In this document: positions 13,266 to 19,814 of the stretch, one piece after another
Layout of the letters: each line of letters begins with the position of its first letter
Numbering within the stretch: the stretch's first letter is position 1
Source of the DNA: a virus
Strand: one strand, 5' to 3'
DNA length: 26,671 bases
IMG/VR virus record: IMGVR_UViG_3300030098_004039
Coordinates: 1-26,671 of that record
Made by a program: the position numbers and the translations under genes
The notes under the pieces: model-generated
The model's database searches: none
Told to the model about the DNA's origin: nothing
What the model saw: the letters and a program-made list of their open reading frames with translations, nothing else

Positions 13266-13622
13266 TTAATCACCTTTAATAACTCTGTAACTATCCTCAT
13301 CAAAGTGTTGAGTAGAAAATTCAAACATATCAGTGTCTTCCAAAGCAAGCATCTGATGCCTCAACCCTCTATACACATGAAACTTATCTCCTCTTTCAAG
13401 TACCACCTCCTTTGCATTTTCTCTGTCATCATCTTCAGAGTACCATACGTGAAGTTTACCTTCTTCTAAGTAAAAAGTTTCATCCTTGAGAACATGATAA
13501 TGCCAAGAACATCTTTTACCTTTTATGAAGTGAAGAAGTTTGCCACAATACTCTTCAGTATTACAAATCCATTTCTCATATCCCCATCCTTTGGGGACAA
13601 TTTTAATTTCGGAAGAACTCAT
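13266..13622 (-). CDS. Small single-domain cupin, sugar-phosphate isomerase-like
   Basis: 118 aa. The cupin metal site is visible as His41 and His43 (SWHYHV), Glu48 and His89 (GLRHQ). The opening PKGWGYEKW resembles the cupin domain attached to mannose-6-phosphate isomerases and GDP-mannose pyrophosphorylases. A sugar-phosphate isomerase or regulatory binding role is likely but not proven. It overlaps the HAD gene by 20 bases. Confidence 0.75.
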   Translation of the reverse strand: MSSSEIKIVPKGWGYEKWICNTEEYCGKLLHFIKGKRCSWHYHVLKDETFYLEEGKLHVWYSEDDDRENAKEVVLERGDKFHVYRGLRHQMLALEDTDMFEFSTQHFDEDSYRVIKGD

Positions 13623-13941
13623 CAGAATTAATACCTTTATCGTCTATGAATAAATCTGCATGAGGTTTTCCCATAATTAATTCATGGTACTTACATCCCC
13701 ATTCTTTTAATTGCTCTTGCGTAAGTTCAAATAGAACTCCTTCAGCTTTTACAGATGCAATAGAATGAGGTTGATCAGAAAACCTACCCATTGCTCTTGC
13801 AGTAAAGTAGATAATGTAATCACCTTCATCATATAGTTTATTTACTTTATCTATACGATCTTGCCAAGGTTCTGCTTTGTGGTAATCTCTACCTACAGTC
13901 GGTGTGCAGATAGTGTTATCTATATCAATACAGTATCTCAT
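13603..13941 (-). CDS. HAD-superfamily phosphatase, capsule-type (BcbF-like)
   Basis: 112 aa. The HAD nucleophile motif CIDIDNTIC (Asp6, Asp8) is at the N-terminus, IIYFTARAMGR supplies the Thr/Arg motif, and LFIDDKGIN gives the C-terminal Asp-Asp. It resembles small phosphatases linked to capsule biosynthesis. In this cluster it might remove the C7 phosphate from heptose bisphosphate in place of GmhB; that is inference from its position next to the adenylyltransferase. Confidence 0.75.
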   Translation of the reverse strand: MRYCIDIDNTICTPTVGRDYHKAEPWQDRIDKVNKLYDEGDYIIYFTARAMGRFSDQPHSIASVKAEGVLFELTQEQLKEWGCKYHELIMGKPHADLFIDDKGINSDEFFRN

Positions 13942-13943
13942 AT

Positions 13944-14093
13944 TTAAATATTTAAAAGTGCAACTAAAGTATCATAAGGAATCCATGCAGGATCTTCATC
14001 TTTAACCTGAACCAATACTTCAGTGAATTGTTTATTCATAAATCTAGAATAGGTTTCTCTTGTATTTTGAATATAAGTATCTGGATTAATCAT
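13944..14093 (-). CDS. Small protein in the heptose gene block, 49 aa
   Basis: ATG 14091-14093, immediately after the adenylyltransferase stop, to TAA 13944-13946, two bases before the HAD gene start. It exactly fills the gap between two recognisable enzymes. The product is soluble and helical (QFTEVLVQVKDEDPAWIPYD, then TLVALLNI) with no Cys or membrane span. The family is unknown. Confidence 0.55.
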   Translation of the reverse strand: MINPDTYIQNTRETYSRFMNKQFTEVLVQVKDEDPAWIPYDTLVALLNI

Positions 14094-14516
14094 TTAATAC
14101 CTCTCTGGTAGATTTGGATATTTATAGTTAATTTTATTAATCACATTGGTAGAAGAATATCCACCTACTCTATTAAAAAATCTAACTTCTTTTGCATATT
14201 CTCTTCCTACTACATCACCATCCCTCCAATCACCTCCTACAATAAGAACATCGGGATTATAGAATTCAATCAATTGTTCCAATTCTTTTCTACTCCCAAA
14301 GACATGTACTTCATCAATATACTTGATTGCTTTTAACATTGCAACCCGATAGCAAAGATTGTTAATAGGTCTATCTGCACCTTTATCAAGTGCTACCTTT
14401 TCATCAGTATCAACACCAACAATCAATCTATCACCAAGTGCTTTGGCTGCCTTGAACAACTCAATGTGACCTGGATGCATTAGATCAAAGCATCCATTAG
14501 TCCAAATAATTTTCAT
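14094..14516 (-). CDS. Cytidylyltransferase-fold enzyme like the HldE C-domain (heptose-1-P adenylyltransferase)
   Basis: 140 aa. TNGCFDLMHPGHIEL carries the HxGH nucleotide-binding motif (His14, His17), followed by GDRLIVGVDTDEKV, RPINN, a VGGD motif (~93-96) and YSSTNVINKI, all in the order seen in the adenylyltransferase half of HldE. That half joins heptose-1-phosphate to ADP. A TagD-type or other sugar cytidylyltransferase is the main alternative. It lies downstream of HldD and the kinase, so the bifunctional HldE seems split into two genes. Confidence 0.85.
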   Translation of the reverse strand: MKIIWTNGCFDLMHPGHIELFKAAKALGDRLIVGVDTDEKVALDKGADRPINNLCYRVAMLKAIKYIDEVHVFGSRKELEQLIEFYNPDVLIVGGDWRDGDVVGREYAKEVRFFNRVGGYSSTNVINKINYKYPNLPERY

Positions 14517-14528
14517 TTTAAATAATCC

Positions 14529-15347
14529 TCAACCATAATAAAGAATACCATCAGTTAAATAATCCTCAACAGTTATAAAATGATAAGGTAACTCACCTAA
14601 ATTTAACCAATCCATATCAGCACAAGTATATGTTTGATACTTACCTTTTAAATGATCAGGAAATGGTATATATTCTATCTCACCATTATACTTGGTAGCA
14701 ATTAAATTAGCAACCTCTTGGAATGATATTGGATTACTTGTACCTAAATCATAAATCCCAGATGGTTTATTATTATTCAATACTATATCTACTATATCAT
14801 CCACACATATAAAATCTCTTTTAAATTTATCAGACCCTTCAAATAATTTTAATTTACCAGTCTCTTTAATCTGTTGAGTAAACTTCTGTACTGGACTTGC
14901 TTGATCTCCTTTATGGTCTTCACCCTCACCATACACATTGAAGTATCTGAATCCTTGAACTAATGAAAACTCATCCATATGATCCTGAACCCAGTAGTCC
15001 ATTATCACTTTGGATATTGCATAGTAATTAAGAGGGTTTATTGTATTAGAAGTATTACCATAAACAGATGCAGAGGAAGCATACTTAATTGGTATCTCAC
15101 GTTTAATTGCTTCTTGAAATATCCATTCAGTAAAATCAACATTAAAATGATGAAGTGCTTGAAGGTTTTTACAAGTAGTAGATGAGATAGCACCTTGATG
15201 CAATATCAATTCAACATCATTCCATTGATAGAAAGACTGTCTGAAATGCCAACTATCATTCTTCTCCACCTGTACAACTTCTTTACCTGTTAGTTTTTCA
15301 AGGAATTTCTTTCCAATAAAACCTTGAGCTCCTGTAAGAATAATCAT
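14529..15347 (-). CDS. hldD: ADP-L-glycero-D-manno-heptose 6-epimerase HldD
   Basis: Extended SDR fold with NAD(P) motif TGAQGFIG (5-12) and catalytic Tyr109/Lys113 (YAISK). Several HldD-specific stretches are present: LHQGAISSTT, FRYFNVYGEGEDHKG, KLFEGSDKFKRDFICV and IEYIPFPDHLKGKYQ, each closely matching the enterobacterial enzyme as I know it. HldD converts ADP-D-glycero- to ADP-L-glycero-D-manno-heptose for LPS inner core. 272 aa, against ~310 in E. coli, so slightly short. ATGA overlap links it to the kinase gene upstream. Confidence 0.88.
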   Translation of the reverse strand: MIILTGAQGFIGKKFLEKLTGKEVVQVEKNDSWHFRQSFYQWNDVELILHQGAISSTTCKNLQALHHFNVDFTEWIFQEAIKREIPIKYASSASVYGNTSNTINPLNYYAISKVIMDYWVQDHMDEFSLVQGFRYFNVYGEGEDHKGDQASPVQKFTQQIKETGKLKLFEGSDKFKRDFICVDDIVDIVLNNNKPSGIYDLGTSNPISFQEVANLIATKYNGEIEYIPFPDHLKGKYQTYTCADMDWLNLGELPYHFITVEDYLTDGILYYG

Positions 15348-16075
15348 AATAAACTAACTCCTCTTTGTTTAACTACTGTAGAAGCACACTTGTTTGCAAA
15401 CTTAATACTCTCAATTATATCACCTATCTTACAATACTCAACTACAAGTCCTGCCATAAACGAATCACCTGCACCAGATGCATCCTTAACATCAACCTTA
15501 TCAACCGAATACCTCTTACCTTTATATTCACATCCATCAGCTCCCATAGTATGAATAATCTTATTACTTATTTCAGGTACAAGAAATGGTTTTGAGTTTT
15601 GATATTCATAATCATTAATCTTAATATACTTTGCATATTGTATCCATTCCCCAAGAATCTTTTTAGTATCAACAAAAGTATTAGGATGCTTAAAACATAT
15701 CTCATTAATATCATCTTCAGTTAAGAATCCTTTATCATAATCAGAGACCACAATAAGATCATACTCATCATAATCAATATGATTTAGATTAATTCTTGGA
15801 ATTGTTTGTGTGGTATCTACTCTAAAGAATGTATGATTACTATTATGATGAACATATCTTGTTTTGGTAATATCATACCAATTATGATTAGTTAAAAGAT
15901 CACATTGATCATGTAAACTTTTAATATTTCGATGAACATTTTTTGCCATACCAGGATTCTCAGTCTGATCCTTCATGTTTAATACTGGTACGGGTACGTC
16001 AGGACATAATCTTAATGCATCACAATACACAAAGACATCTCTGGAACTATCACCAACAACTAAAACTTTTTTCAT
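15344..16075 (-). CDS. PfkB-family kinase like the HldE N-domain (heptose-7-P kinase)
   Basis: 243 aa. VVGDSSRDVFVYCDALRLCP, then DVPVPVL and ENPGMAKNV, parallel the HldE start (GD...D, SPEAPVPV, PGGAANV). VVSDYDKGFLT corresponds to SDYGKG. GAGDSFMAG (from residue 201, Asp204 as catalytic base) is the PfkB signature. HldE-N makes D-glycero-D-manno-heptose-1,7-bisphosphate. It is shorter than the ~320-aa kinase half, with a trimmed middle. Linked by ATGA to both neighbours. Confidence 0.83.
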   Translation of the reverse strand: MKKVLVVGDSSRDVFVYCDALRLCPDVPVPVLNMKDQTENPGMAKNVHRNIKSLHDQCDLLTNHNWYDITKTRYVHHNSNHTFFRVDTTQTIPRINLNHIDYDEYDLIVVSDYDKGFLTEDDINEICFKHPNTFVDTKKILGEWIQYAKYIKINDYEYQNSKPFLVPEISNKIIHTMGADGCEYKGKRYSVDKVDVKDASGAGDSFMAGLVVEYCKIGDIIESIKFANKCASTVVKQRGVSLL

Positions 16076-16872
16076 CTTCCAATATGAGATTTATAAAACT
16101 CCTTAACATCTTCAGGAGGATGTGGTAAGAATGCTCTAAGTAACCAATCATTCCATCCAGTAAAATTAGGAGATAATTTAATAAACAATCTATCTTTTGG
16201 TAAAACTTTAGCAGCAAGATGAGCACCAAAAGAATCGCATCCAGCATAATAATCACAAGATGCTGCTAAGTCAACAATGTATTTAATAGAAGGTTTAACT
16301 AAAAGTTTATGGTCTGTAACAGGAACATCAATTTCTTTATCGGATATTACTATTACTTTTGCACCCTTTTCCTTAGATAAATTCTCAACAAATTGCCAAT
16401 CATCCATTGTAATAGAAGCAATATCTGATCTAGGTCTTGTAGAAGTTGGATAATGAAAGAGTATATAATTATCAAAATCAACTGGATTTGCATTCTTAAT
16501 AAAAGAAGATCCAACATAAGGACGGGTAGTATCTTCAAAACATCCCACAGCATTTATGGCCTGAACTTCATCTTCTTTAAGTCCAAATAATTTTAAACCT
16601 ACTTGATAATTCTTTGGAAAATCTGGTCTAAAATGCCAGAAAGGAATAGCAATAGGATCAAGAGATTCCATTGCTTTCTTTCCATCTTCATCATCCAAAG
16701 TATAATGTGCTTTTAAATTAGGATAATCTGGATTATTCTCTAACAAAGGAATTAAAACATGACCAAATCTACAAGCCCAATAAAGTTCACTAATAGATTC
16801 CTTTTCTTCAGGAGTAAGAATGGCATCTAGAAATACCATATCTCCAATTCCTACAGAAATATAAGTTTTCAT
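16072..16872 (-). CDS. GT9-like (heptosyltransferase-type) glycosyltransferase
   Basis: 266 aa. The C-terminal YAGCDSFGAHLAAKVL resembles the donor-binding G-x-D-S/T-G-x-x-H-L-A-A block of LPS heptosyltransferases (GT9). The N-terminal ISVGIGDMVFLDAIL is like the G-D glycine loop of that GT-B fold. Its position directly before the ADP-heptose genes suggests that it uses ADP-heptose. The match is partial and no other diagnostic residue is clear. Confidence 0.65.
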   Translation of the reverse strand: MKTYISVGIGDMVFLDAILTPEEKESISELYWACRFGHVLIPLLENNPDYPNLKAHYTLDDEDGKKAMESLDPIAIPFWHFRPDFPKNYQVGLKLFGLKEDEVQAINAVGCFEDTTRPYVGSSFIKNANPVDFDNYILFHYPTSTRPRSDIASITMDDWQFVENLSKEKGAKVIVISDKEIDVPVTDHKLLVKPSIKYIVDLAASCDYYAGCDSFGAHLAAKVLPKDRLFIKLSPNFTGWNDWLLRAFLPHPPEDVKEFYKSHIGR

Positions 16873-16876
16873 TAAA

Positions 16877-18085
16877 TTAATACCTCGACTTTCTTTCTAT
16901 AATCATAGCAGGTTTTCCACTTCTACGAGCAGCAAGTAAACAACTAGTAACTCCTGCACCATTTACTGGATCTAGAACTGGGAAGCTAACTGCCTTTCTA
17001 AAGACTTCAGTAAAATCTTGTGAATGTGTGATACCAGAATAAAAAGGACCAGCATCAGCAGTGACTGCTCTAATAATAATAGGACACTTAAACTCACCAT
17101 GAGATATTCTTTCTATCTTATCAATATGATTAATGATTGCGTCAGCAGCAACCAACATAAAATCATGTCGTTCATAATAAAGAACTGGCAAAAACCCCTC
17201 AAAAGACATACCAATAGCAAGACCTGCCATGAGGTTTTCTGCTACTGGAGTTTCCAACTTTTGATCATCAGGAACATTCTTTAATGTACCTATAGCATTT
17301 CCATACTTAACATTATATCCAATAAAAATAGCACCCAACTTACCCAACTCAGTCATAGAATCAATCATTGCATCTTTATAAGATGACTCTGGTGCAACCC
17401 AATCCTTATCCAAATAACTCATTATATTTGGTTCATCTAAGGGGGGAAAATATTCATTATCTGTTTTCTTGACTGCCTTAGATAGGTCAATCATTCCTGG
17501 CTTGCGACAGTGGGGATAAGTACATTCATAATGATACTTAATAACACGGTTAGAATCCCAAGTTGGATGTGCTGTCTTACCCCAACGGTCAGCATTACTT
17601 GCTTCACACGATCTGTCATTGCTTTCTATGATAAAAGTACAAGGTAAATCAAATCCATCAGCATAACGAACTGCCTCTGAAAGGTGTCCATTATCCTCTG
17701 TACCATCACCAACAAAGCACCAAACCTTTTGGTCCGATCCTTTACGTTTCAATGCCCAGGCAATCCCTGCAGCAATAGCAGGAGTACCACCAATGATAGC
17801 AGAAACAAAAAAGTTTCTTTCCCTATCATAGATGAACATACTGCGTCCATTCTTAATTCTATCTTCTACAACATCAGGTGGCACACCGTGTAGAAGAGCA
17901 TGATAATGATTTCTATGACTGGATATTACATAATCACCTTCCTTTATATCCTTAAAAATATCTATTAACTGTTCCTCATTTCCTCCTGACAAATGAAAAA
18001 GGAATGGGAGTTGGTTATCCATATAAAGATCACCAATATGATCCTCAAAAGCAATTAATTCTTCTTTAGTCCAAACCTTTCTCAT
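16877..18085 (-). CDS. Compact thiamine-diphosphate enzyme: E1-alpha fused to a truncated E1-beta-like domain
   Basis: 402 aa. Residues 1-200 resemble the alpha subunit of 2-oxoacid dehydrogenase E1: SSHRNHYHALLHGVPP, then the thiamine-diphosphate motif GDG (126-128) to Asn156-Asp157. Residues ~230-400 resemble the pyrimidine-binding part of E1-beta, with catalytic-type Glu283 (TPVAENLMAGLAIG) and THSQDF. The usual C-terminal domain of E1-beta is absent. A Cys/His patch (YECTYPHC, 186-193) is unusual. No lipoyl-transferase partner is nearby, but an alcohol dehydrogenase gene overlaps it by one base. A C-C bond-forming or cleaving step on a sugar or small keto acid is plausible; substrate unknown. 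Confidence 0.82.
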   Translation of the reverse strand: MRKVWTKEELIAFEDHIGDLYMDNQLPFLFHLSGGNEEQLIDIFKDIKEGDYVISSHRNHYHALLHGVPPDVVEDRIKNGRSMFIYDRERNFFVSAIIGGTPAIAAGIAWALKRKGSDQKVWCFVGDGTEDNGHLSEAVRYADGFDLPCTFIIESNDRSCEASNADRWGKTAHPTWDSNRVIKYHYECTYPHCRKPGMIDLSKAVKKTDNEYFPPLDEPNIMSYLDKDWVAPESSYKDAMIDSMTELGKLGAIFIGYNVKYGNAIGTLKNVPDDQKLETPVAENLMAGLAIGMSFEGFLPVLYYERHDFMLVAADAIINHIDKIERISHGEFKCPIIIRAVTADAGPFYSGITHSQDFTEVFRKAVSFPVLDPVNGAGVTSCLLAARRSGKPAMIIERKSRY

Positions 18086-19098
18086 TACTCCTCTCCTATA
18101 TTAATCATTATTCTACCAGCATCTCCCGATCTAAGCAAGTCAAATGCATCATTAATTCGATCAAGAGTAAAGGTATTAGTATGCAAACTTTCATATTCTA
18201 ACAATCCTCTATCCGCAAGAGCAATATATCTTGGAATATCTTTTTCAGGATCTGTTCCACCACCTTGTGTTGCTCTAACAGATTTACCAGTACCATCAAA
18301 CATAGAGACTGCATTTGGAATTTCTACCTCTGCACCTGGTCTTGGTTGACCAACAAGAATTAATCTTCCACTTGGTGCAAGTTTATCATATGCTGCACTA
18401 ATTACTGGAGGAATACCAGTGGTGTCAATAATAACATCAACCTTCTGTAGAATATCAGATACATTATAAACAAATGAATCTGCTCCCATTAAAGTACTAA
18501 GTTCAGACATCTTCTCACTAATATCCACAGCATAAATTGGAGATGCACTCTTCATCTTTGCTGCTTGAATTAAATTAAGTCCTACACCACCACACCCAAC
18601 GATAGCAATTGACTCTCCAAACTTAAGATCACATTCATTATCAATGATACCTAATGCAGTTGTTAAAGAACAACCAAGCATTGCTGCTAATACTGGTGAA
18701 GTACTTTGTGGGATAGAAGTCACTCTATTTTCAGAAACAATAGAGTATTCACTAAGAGTTGTAACCTTACCACTTGATATAATTTGATCATCTAAAATAT
18801 ATTCTGGAAAAGGAGATTCAAAACCAGATCCTGGTCTCCAATGCATCACTACCTTGTCACCTACCTTGACAGTATTGACACCCAATCCTATCTGCTCAAC
18901 GATGCCACAACCCTCATGTCCCATTAAGTGGGGAAGAAAACGTGCGTTTCCCTTGTGACCCCTGATTTCGTGCAATTGAGCACCACACAGACCGCTTACA
19001 AGAACTCTTACAAGTACTTGCCCAATCTTTAGATCAGTAGGTTTTACATCTCTAACTGCTAAAGGAGCATCAATCTCTTCTAATACTACTGCTTTCAT
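18085..19098 (-). CDS. Zinc-type alcohol dehydrogenase (MDR family)
   Basis: 337 aa with the MDR layout: catalytic zinc ligands Cys38 (SGLCGAQ), His61-Glu62 (GHEGCG) and Cys143 (LGCSLTTA), then Rossmann motif GCGGVG (~168-173) and an acidic residue (AVDIS) favouring NAD+. The four-cysteine structural-zinc lobe is missing. It oxidises or reduces a hydroxyl group, probably on a sugar or on the product of the adjacent thiamine-diphosphate enzyme, to which it is coupled by TAATG. Substrate not determinable. Confidence 0.88.
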   Translation of the reverse strand: MKAVVLEEIDAPLAVRDVKPTDLKIGQVLVRVLVSGLCGAQLHEIRGHKGNARFLPHLMGHEGCGIVEQIGLGVNTVKVGDKVVMHWRPGSGFESPFPEYILDDQIISSGKVTTLSEYSIVSENRVTSIPQSTSPVLAAMLGCSLTTALGIIDNECDLKFGESIAIVGCGGVGLNLIQAAKMKSASPIYAVDISEKMSELSTLMGADSFVYNVSDILQKVDVIIDTTGIPPVISAAYDKLAPSGRLILVGQPRPGAEVEIPNAVSMFDGTGKSVRATQGGGTDPEKDIPRYIALADRGLLEYESLHTNTFTLDRINDAFDLLRSGDAGRIMINIGEE

Positions 19099-19814
19099 AA
19101 TTCATACCCAACATACTTGGTTACGTTTGTAAAAAGATCTATATGATCATTATAATGTCTTCTATCATTAGGATAGTAAAAGGTTTTTGCTTTAGTATCA
19201 ATCACATCTACAATATAACAAAGTGCCGTAGGGACTGTATGTATTTCCTTTGCATTCTCCAATACTTTTGTCCAATCAAATAAACTAAATCCATCTATAA
19301 TTCTATTTTCTATTACAGGATAATCATATTCCTTTTCACCCAATGAACTAGTCTTACGAATATCTGTATTAGTAAGATCATTCACATATACATACTCGCT
19401 ATCATCATTTAAACCAAGAATATTATAATACAATTCATCTTCTCTATCATTCTTTCTATTAAACTTAAAATACTTACCCCAATCTTTATGATCTATACCA
19501 ACTAATCCAAATTTAGATCTCATAATCATATTTGGATCAGTATTAAAAGTTCTATCTGCGGTAGAAGTATCGATGTAAATAAAACCTTCTACCTCACCAA
19601 ATCCAGCATAATTAAATAATTTACTTCTAGGATCTTTCATCCATTCAGATAATTTACACCATTGAATATCTGGAATATATTCAGAAATCCAAAATATATC
19701 ATCACGTAAAGGCCATATTATAGAATGACCTTTATCAAGATAAGTACGTGCAATCTTCTGAAGAAAGAATACATCTCCAACTCCAGCAGGTTGCTTAATT
19801 ATACATGATTTCAT
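19095..19814 (-). CDS. GT-B/GT9-like protein, 239 aa
   Basis: The N-terminus CIIKQPAGVGDVFFLQKIA resembles the G-D-x-x-x glycine loop at the start of heptosyltransferase-type GT-B proteins, and the late segment IHTVPTALCYIVDVI is a weak form of the donor-binding block. The middle is rich in Asp, Tyr and Asn and unlike anything I recognise. It overlaps both neighbours by 4 bases (ATGA). A glycosyltransferase is the best guess from context. Confidence 0.55.
   Translation of the reverse strand: MKSCIIKQPAGVGDVFFLQKIARTYLDKGHSIIWPLRDDIFWISEYIPDIQWCKLSEWMKDPRSKLFNYAGFGEVEGFIYIDTSTADRTFNTDPNMIMRSKFGLVGIDHKDWGKYFKFNRKNDREDELYYNILGLNDDSEYVYVNDLTNTDIRKTSSLGEKEYDYPVIENRIIDGFSLFDWTKVLENAKEIHTVPTALCYIVDVIDTKAKTFYYPNDRRHYNDHIDLFTNVTKYVGYEL

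Follow-up and report, generated by a model that had tools for sequence, protein, structure and literature searches.

A putative ADP-heptose module in a T4-like cyanophage, with a cupin as candidate replacement for GmhA

How might a phage make an activated heptose when it carries no GmhA, the sedoheptulose-7-phosphate isomerase that opens the pathway? The question is raised by a 26.7-kb fragment of a T4-like cyanophage, IMG/VR virus record IMGVR_UViG_3300030098_004039 (positions 1 to 26,671, hereafter the window), in which a preliminary description had recognised five open reading frames (ORFs) of an ADP-heptose module between positions 13603 and 16872. These ORFs are present on the minus strand, and the family matches, which greatly exceed chance level, bear out an ADP-heptose-type module split into separate genes. 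They follow the order putative heptosyltransferase-fold protein, short HldE-N-like kinase, HldD, HldE-C-like nucleotidyltransferase and small HAD phosphatase, and the first four genes abut, with 4-base overlaps or short gaps. The description stopped one gene short and overlooked the cupin gene at 13266-13622. We consider it probable that this compact module makes ADP-L-glycero-beta-D-manno-heptose from sedoheptulose-7-phosphate in infected picocyanobacteria, the cupin replacing GmhA and the small HAD replacing GmhB; the catalytic activities named below are predictions from gene content, homology, residue conservation and linkage. The genes are as follows:

16072..16872, minus strand: probable GT-B fold protein, GT9 heptosyltransferase-like by AlphaFold model fold matches, 266 amino acids (aa)
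15344..16075, minus strand: PfkB sugar kinase, short and HldE-N-like (predicted heptose-7-phosphate kinase), 243 aa; TIGR02198, best PDB match HldA 4e84
14529..15347, minus strand: HldD, ADP-glyceromanno-heptose 6-epimerase, 272 aa; TIGR02197, best PDB match 1eq2
14094..14516, minus strand: HldE-C-like nucleotidyltransferase (predicted heptose-1-phosphate adenylyltransferase), 140 aa; TIGR02199
13944..14093, minus strand: ORF of 49 aa between the nucleotidyltransferase and the HAD, read directly from the sequence, no function assigned
13603..13941, minus strand: HAD phosphatase, 112 aa, proposed GmhB replacement; DIDNT motif, TIGR01689, PDB 9iqw and 1xpj
13266..13622, minus strand: cupin, 118 aa, proposed GmhA replacement (predicted sedoheptulose-7-phosphate isomerase); overlaps the HAD gene

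The cupin and the GmhA step

GmhA had been described as the only missing step of the pathway. It is probably not missing, as fold, active site and linkage make the adjoining cupin a strong candidate for it, and the cupin and the HAD are the likely replacements of GmhA and GmhB. The AlphaFold model of the cupin shows a predicted local distance difference test (pLDDT) of 94.5, and in a Foldseek search against the PDB its matches 1 to 6 are all D-lyxose isomerases (E=3e-10 to 3e-9), with CapF, KdgF, oxalate decarboxylase and phosphomannose isomerase at lower rank. In sequence-profile searches, too, the best PDB matches include L-ribose isomerase and D-lyxose isomerase. The active site of the Thermofilum D-lyxose isomerase (TsLI) comprises K62, H75, H77, K86, E88, H143, E156 and D163 (PMC8378251). 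Through the alignment with B. subtilis 2y0o, whose residue spacings fit, these positions map to K28, H41, H43, K46, E48, H89, E101 and D108 of the phage cupin. All 50 relatives keep the initial seven of these unchanged, including the His-x-His, Glu, His metal site (H41, H43, E48, H89), and D108 is Asp in 41 relatives, Glu in six and Val in three. The D-lyxose isomerase class interconverts ketoses and aldoses of lyxo/manno configuration, which is GmhA-type chemistry, and lyxose, mannose and manno-heptose have a common C2-C3 configuration.

Two other names for the cupin were set aside. Cysteine dioxygenase, the PHROG label, appears only at rank 37 among the fold matches, and the three-His-one-Glu site together with the Lys suits isomerases better. 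Matches to the C-terminal domain of type II phosphomannose isomerases are weak (GMP_PMI, 3e-5 at best), and the D-lyxose isomerase class was preferred. Within the papers available, a literature search found none tying a cupin to the GmhA step. SIS-family GmhA was found neither in the window nor in nine complete phage isolate genomes; TIGR00441 and a mixed local GmhA profile were added to PF13580 in the GmhA searches, because PF13580 missed the divergent phage GmhA of locus L017.

The strongest argument for the cupin as a GmhA replacement comes from a comparison of modules whose other genes are swapped. The ADP-heptose route consists of GmhA, HldE, GmhB and HldD, the GDP-heptose route of GmhA, HddA, GmhB and HddC, and only the GmhA and GmhB steps are common to both. 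The cupin was found in 35 named phage records. In three of them, Bellamy, SynMITS9220M01 and AG-345-E15, it is flanked by a GHMP kinase (HddA; E=7e-83 against NF049969 for the Bellamy protein) and by an NTP transferase that matches the HddC family best, and no PfkB kinase was found in these three phages. A search that started from HddA recovered the cupin in 25 of 26 loci and no SIS-type GmhA; the sole exception is a distant homologue of 28% identity. Here and below, the locus sets of different scans overlap and form a non-random sample, so that the fractions describe linkage and not prevalence. The HAD sits between HddA and the cupin in some of these loci (L173, L191 and L253). Kinase and transferase are thus exchanged as a pair, whereas the cupin is retained and the HAD often is too, which is the behaviour expected of replacements for GmhA and GmhB.

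Enzymes of the module and the proposed route

HldD is, from its sequence, the firmest family call of the module. It scores 218 bits against TIGR02197 (E=1e-64), under the NCBIfam equivalog cut-off, and E. coli HldD (1eq2, E=9e-49) is the solved structure nearest to it. The stretches first proposed as HldD-specific align directly with FEGSENFKRDF and YIPFPDKLKGRYQ of the E. coli enzyme. In an alignment of HldD from 11 phages, the equivalents of E. coli Ser116, Tyr140, Lys144, Lys178, Arg209 and Tyr272 are invariant; Tyr140 and Lys178 are the catalytic pair of this enzyme. With 1eq2 as best PDB match and Ser116, Tyr140, Lys144 and Lys178 all kept, the earlier call of HldD rather than a generic epimerase holds.

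Of the family names, that of HldD is correct, and those of the kinase and the nucleotidyltransferase are reasonable. HldE-N is the best NCBIfam match of the kinase (TIGR02198, 97 bits, E=1e-27). The protein lacks about 25 residues of the HldE-N central region, after PVPV, and is shortened again further on; it keeps the RxxPxxPVPV and GAGD motifs, and RLCPDVPVPV and DASGAGDS are conserved in 14 phages. The nucleotidyltransferase scores 120 bits against HldE-C (TIGR02199, E=9e-35) versus only 71 bits against the glycerol-3-phosphate cytidylyltransferase family, while a single-sequence PDB search lists cytidylyltransferases first. Elsewhere, kinase and transferase are fused in one frame at L096:7395-8573, as a re-formed HldE, and transferase and HAD at L044:10768-11493; these fusions support a functional linkage of the module genes. 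A PfkB kinase match in another phage record (G482:C1:142302-143039) shows one internal TGA codon.

The small HAD shows Asp6, Asp8, Thr10, Lys92, Asp96 and Asp101 invariant across 38 relatives. Its solved relatives are the 'capsule biosynthesis protein' 9iqw (E=1e-21) and 1xpj, and no GmhB was found at E<1 in a PDB search with the HAD. Of the proposal that it stands in for GmhB, a functional stand-in is the most that can be kept, as the protein belongs with TIGR01689 and 9iqw and not with the GmhB family. A PHROG label, 'phosphoheptose isomerase', would offer it as the missing GmhA; this was ruled out, the protein being a HAD. The same name on this phosphatase-type HAD is misleading and widespread, in PHROGs and RefSeq phage records (385 phage records). 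A GmhB-like protein is found in two phage loci, L010:16682-17416 (beside a carbamoyltransferase) and L201:4357-4854.

The GT-like protein has no Pfam, NCBIfam or PHROG match, and further sequence searches gave nothing useful. Its AlphaFold model is of modest confidence (pLDDT 62.5); the four best PDB matches are WaaC, with TibC close behind; E is 2e-5 against E. coli WaaC, and the template modelling (TM) scores are about 0.45. The first designation, heptosyltransferase-like, finds no GT9 family match at the sequence level and leans on the fold of a weak model. The model supports, without proving, a heptosyltransferase.

In the route that we propose, the cupin would convert sedoheptulose-7-phosphate to D-glycero-D-manno-heptose-7-phosphate in place of GmhA. 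The PfkB kinase would add the 1-phosphate (HldE-N step), the small HAD would remove the 7-phosphate in place of GmhB, and the HldE-C-like enzyme would add AMP. HldD would then invert C6, as an optional last step, many phages keeping only the first four. Phage glycosyltransferases would pass the sugar on, most likely to a surface glycan of the infected cell or to the virion.

The module belongs to a glycan operon that runs on a single strand from 23305 down to 9977 and also includes the genes listed here:

18085..19098, minus strand: zinc alcohol dehydrogenase, 337 aa; PF08240, PF00107
16877..18085, minus strand: thiamine-diphosphate enzyme (E1/transketolase-like), 402 aa; PF00676, PF02779
9977..13263, minus strand: four glycosyltransferases, namely GT25, GT11, galactosyltransferase-type and GT11; PF01755, PF01531, PF02709, PF01531

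Sequence searches with the protein encoded at 19095-19814 gave nothing useful. The window also encodes purM and a cyanophage outer-membrane-like gene (PF24653), as well as plastocyanin- and ferredoxin-like genes recognised by translation only. The thiamine-diphosphate enzyme and the zinc alcohol dehydrogenase (window:16877-19098) accompany the PfkB kinase in 21 of 79 loci found by a kinase-first search, and also accompany it in loci that have no other module genes close by (L294, L296, L299, L301 and L306).

Occurrence in phages and in host genomes

The module is not unique to the window: known cyanophages carry it, with some of its genes annotated already. A tblastn search of named phages gave 32 records for the kinase and 42 for HldD; the ones with high identity are cyanophages or marine single-cell viruses. 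In P-SSM2, the consecutive T4 gene clusters (T4-GC) 304 to 308 are the transferase, kinase, HAD, cupin and HldD. Two settings were observed: a glycan operon near hli, ferredoxin or pstS (the window, S-SM2 and P-TIM68), and a position beside tail-fibre, carbamoyltransferase and 2-oxoglutarate (2OG)-Fe(II) oxygenase genes (P-SSM2, S-CAM1, S-CAM3, S-SSM7 and Sf-FS3). S-T4 and Sf-CH8 show no HldD in the 24.7 kb inspected and keep the other four genes, so HldD would be an optional step.

Kinase, transferase, HAD and cupin are all present in 37 of the 39 IMG/VR loci that have HldD and flanks of 4.5 kb or more on both sides. Starting from the cupin, a heptose kinase of either type lies within 6 kb in 51 of 58 loci, and kinase, transferase and HAD are found in 45. 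Two of the seven records without such a kinase within 6 kb have one elsewhere, and the others are fragments. In four loci (L204, L214, L230 and L233), the cupin is clustered with nonulosonate-type genes (NeuB-like by eye), with no heptose kinase within 6 kb. Starting from the kinase, the cupin lies within 6 kb in 32 of 61 loci.

A third, heptose-like phage module contains a true SIS-type GmhA, together with a GHMP kinase, a fusion protein of HAD and CTP-transferase-like domain, and an SDR, and is carried by L017 and SynMITS9220M01:

L017:4950-8037 and L247:15571-18650: third heptose-like module

The heptose-related genes reported for cyanophage SynMITS9220M01 (PMC7378029) are those of this SIS-GmhA module and differ from those of the window. 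Phage records often already name the genes of the window's module 'heptose', which, along with that publication (albeit on a different module), speaks against novelty of the module. What is new is the specific closure of the pathway, by a cupin ketol-isomerase and a small HAD as predicted equivalents of GmhA and GmhB in both ADP- and GDP-heptose modules.

Among possible hosts, the lipopolysaccharide (LPS) of Synechococcus WH8102 and CC9311 is without heptose according to a review (PMC4515613). HldD over the family cut-off was found in none of 291 genomes drawn from the cyanobacterial class and in two of 201 genomes of the picocyanobacterial family Cyanobiaceae, whose membership was inferred, including by GTDB kinship to genome G188. 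A GmhA match (E<=1e-6) occurs in only 45 of the 201; this scarcity, with the lack of GmhA in the nine phage genomes, was counted in favour of the cupin as its replacement. About five Cyanobiaceae genomes show gmhA-hldE-gmhB type loci, some with hldD, and complete or near-complete heptose loci are found in G379, G352, G443 and G329. The description of heptose as foreign to the host thus stands for WH8102 and CC9311 and does not extend to picocyanobacteria in general, a few of which encode heptose genes. A ferredoxin scan for picocyanobacteria returned just two other cyanobacteria and served as entry to whole genomes.

The picocyanobacterial genome G385, also counted in favour of the proposed route, carries gmhA and a split hldE on one contig, and its only strong HldD is an orphan phage-type gene on another, chromosomal contig (L149:7924-8706; contig C4 of 434 kb, which also encodes rpoB, rpoC1 and rpoC2 by translation). 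In the tree, this HldD is nested among the phage sequences with that of the window as its neighbour (support 100/96), so the gene was most likely passed from phage to host. Contig G358:C3 encodes a HAD, a transferase and a cupin of the phage type; it resembles phage DNA and was left out of the host evidence.

Alternative readings and known pathways

Several observations weigh against the proposed route. The kinase, at 97 bits, and the transferase, at 120 bits, stay under the HldE-N and HldE-C cut-offs of 345 and 181.5, although HldE-C is the best family of the latter, so wording of the type 'HldX-like' is appropriate for both. Lower-ranking matches of the cupin include phosphomannose isomerase, oxalate decarboxylase, KdgF and CapF, so its fold does not by itself prove an isomerase; CapF likewise has a Lys two residues before the Glu. 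The HAD family is not heptose-specific, its 385 records being widespread in other T4-like phages. Linkage is weaker from the kinase side: 29 of 61 loci have neither cupin nor GmhA within 6 kb. Fourteen of these records were searched over their full length: a strong cupin turned up elsewhere in four and a weak match in one, and the others, which reach 262 kb, gave none. Several of these phages pair the kinase with the thiamine-diphosphate enzyme and zinc dehydrogenase; they may depend on the host, have another isomerase or use the kinase differently. Finally, five cupin-bearing fragments lack a heptose kinase, several of them near nonulosonate-type genes.

ADP-heptose might be made with host GmhA or another host isomerase performing the first step, while the cupin acts otherwise, for example in nucleotide-sugar modification. 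We judge this unlikely. The GmhA matches in 45 of 201 Cyanobiaceae genomes, the kinase-bearing phages without a cupin and the presence of CapF-type cupins, which act on nucleotide sugars, among the fold matches are consistent with it; however, most host genomes have no GmhA match, the cupin residues match those of aldose-ketose isomerases, and a cupin common to ADP- and GDP-type modules, whose nucleotide sugars differ, points to an early common step. There is a similarly small chance that the heptose-pathway folds build another activated sugar: a different heptose, a pentose, or a CDP- or GDP-linked sugar. The scores under the family cut-offs, the cytidylyltransferases as nearest solved sequences of the transferase, and the thiamine-diphosphate enzyme and zinc dehydrogenase in the operon and in 21 of 79 kinase-first loci argue for such a sugar. 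Set against this are a specific HldD with its active site kept, and HddA, a second and independent heptose kinase family, which pairs with the same cupin. Arabinose is attached to DNA in RB69-type phages, and relatives of the HAD occur in many enterobacterial T4-like phages, some beside a nucleotidyltransferase; yet in cyanophages the modules are embedded in groups of GT10, GT11 and GT25 glycan genes or adjoin genes for tail fibres and carbamoyltransferases, and not DNA-modification genes. We regard a sugar destined for phage DNA instead of a surface as very improbable.

Extended to marine T4-like phages, the cupin route to heptose leads to a wider proposal, which we advance tentatively: a metal-dependent cupin ketol-isomerase may be a non-homologous replacement of GmhA, common to ADP- and GDP-heptose modules, so that phages could make heptose without host GmhA and put it on the surfaces of hosts whose analysed LPS has none. 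If correct, it would give a role to an abundant cyanophage gene that now goes under the labels 'cysteine dioxygenase' or 'nucleotidyltransferase', account for heptose synthesis without GmhA and mend the 'phosphoheptose isomerase' label on the neighbouring phosphatase. It also bears on the old question of the purpose of large LPS-like gene clusters in cyanophages. Sf-FS3 infects Synechococcus WH8102, which is heptose-free by LPS analysis, so a sugar that appears there after infection would stand out readily.

Among the closest known systems, the cyanophages P-SSM2, S-SM2, P-TIM68, S-CAM1, S-CAM3, S-SSM7 and Sf-FS3 show the same five families as the window in a cluster (T4-GC 304-308), HldD being on the opposite strand in the tail-fibre-side setting. 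With the D-lyxose/D-mannose isomerases (TsLI 7nzp, B. subtilis 2y0o and E. coli 3kmh), the phage cupin shares the fold, the three-His-one-Glu metal site and the positions of the catalytic Lys and Glu; however, it has 118 residues versus about 170-230, its loop from the second His to the Lys is six residues shorter, and its predicted substrate is a seven-carbon ketose phosphate. As to the GDP-heptose pathway, HddA and HddC-like genes of other marine phages (Bellamy, SynMITS9220M01 and several IMG/VR contigs) are accompanied by this cupin and in some cases also by the HAD, whereas the window has an ADP-type kinase and transferase and neither HddA nor HddC. Like the bacterial ADP-heptose pathway (GmhA, HldE, GmhB and HldD), the window has homologues of HldE-N, HldE-C and HldD, the last with its active site kept, and a candidate transferase, possibly of GT9 fold, nearby. 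It differs in that HldE is split in two, with a much shortened kinase, and in that the GmhA and GmhB families are absent, with a cupin and a small EcbF/BcbF-type HAD apparently in their place.

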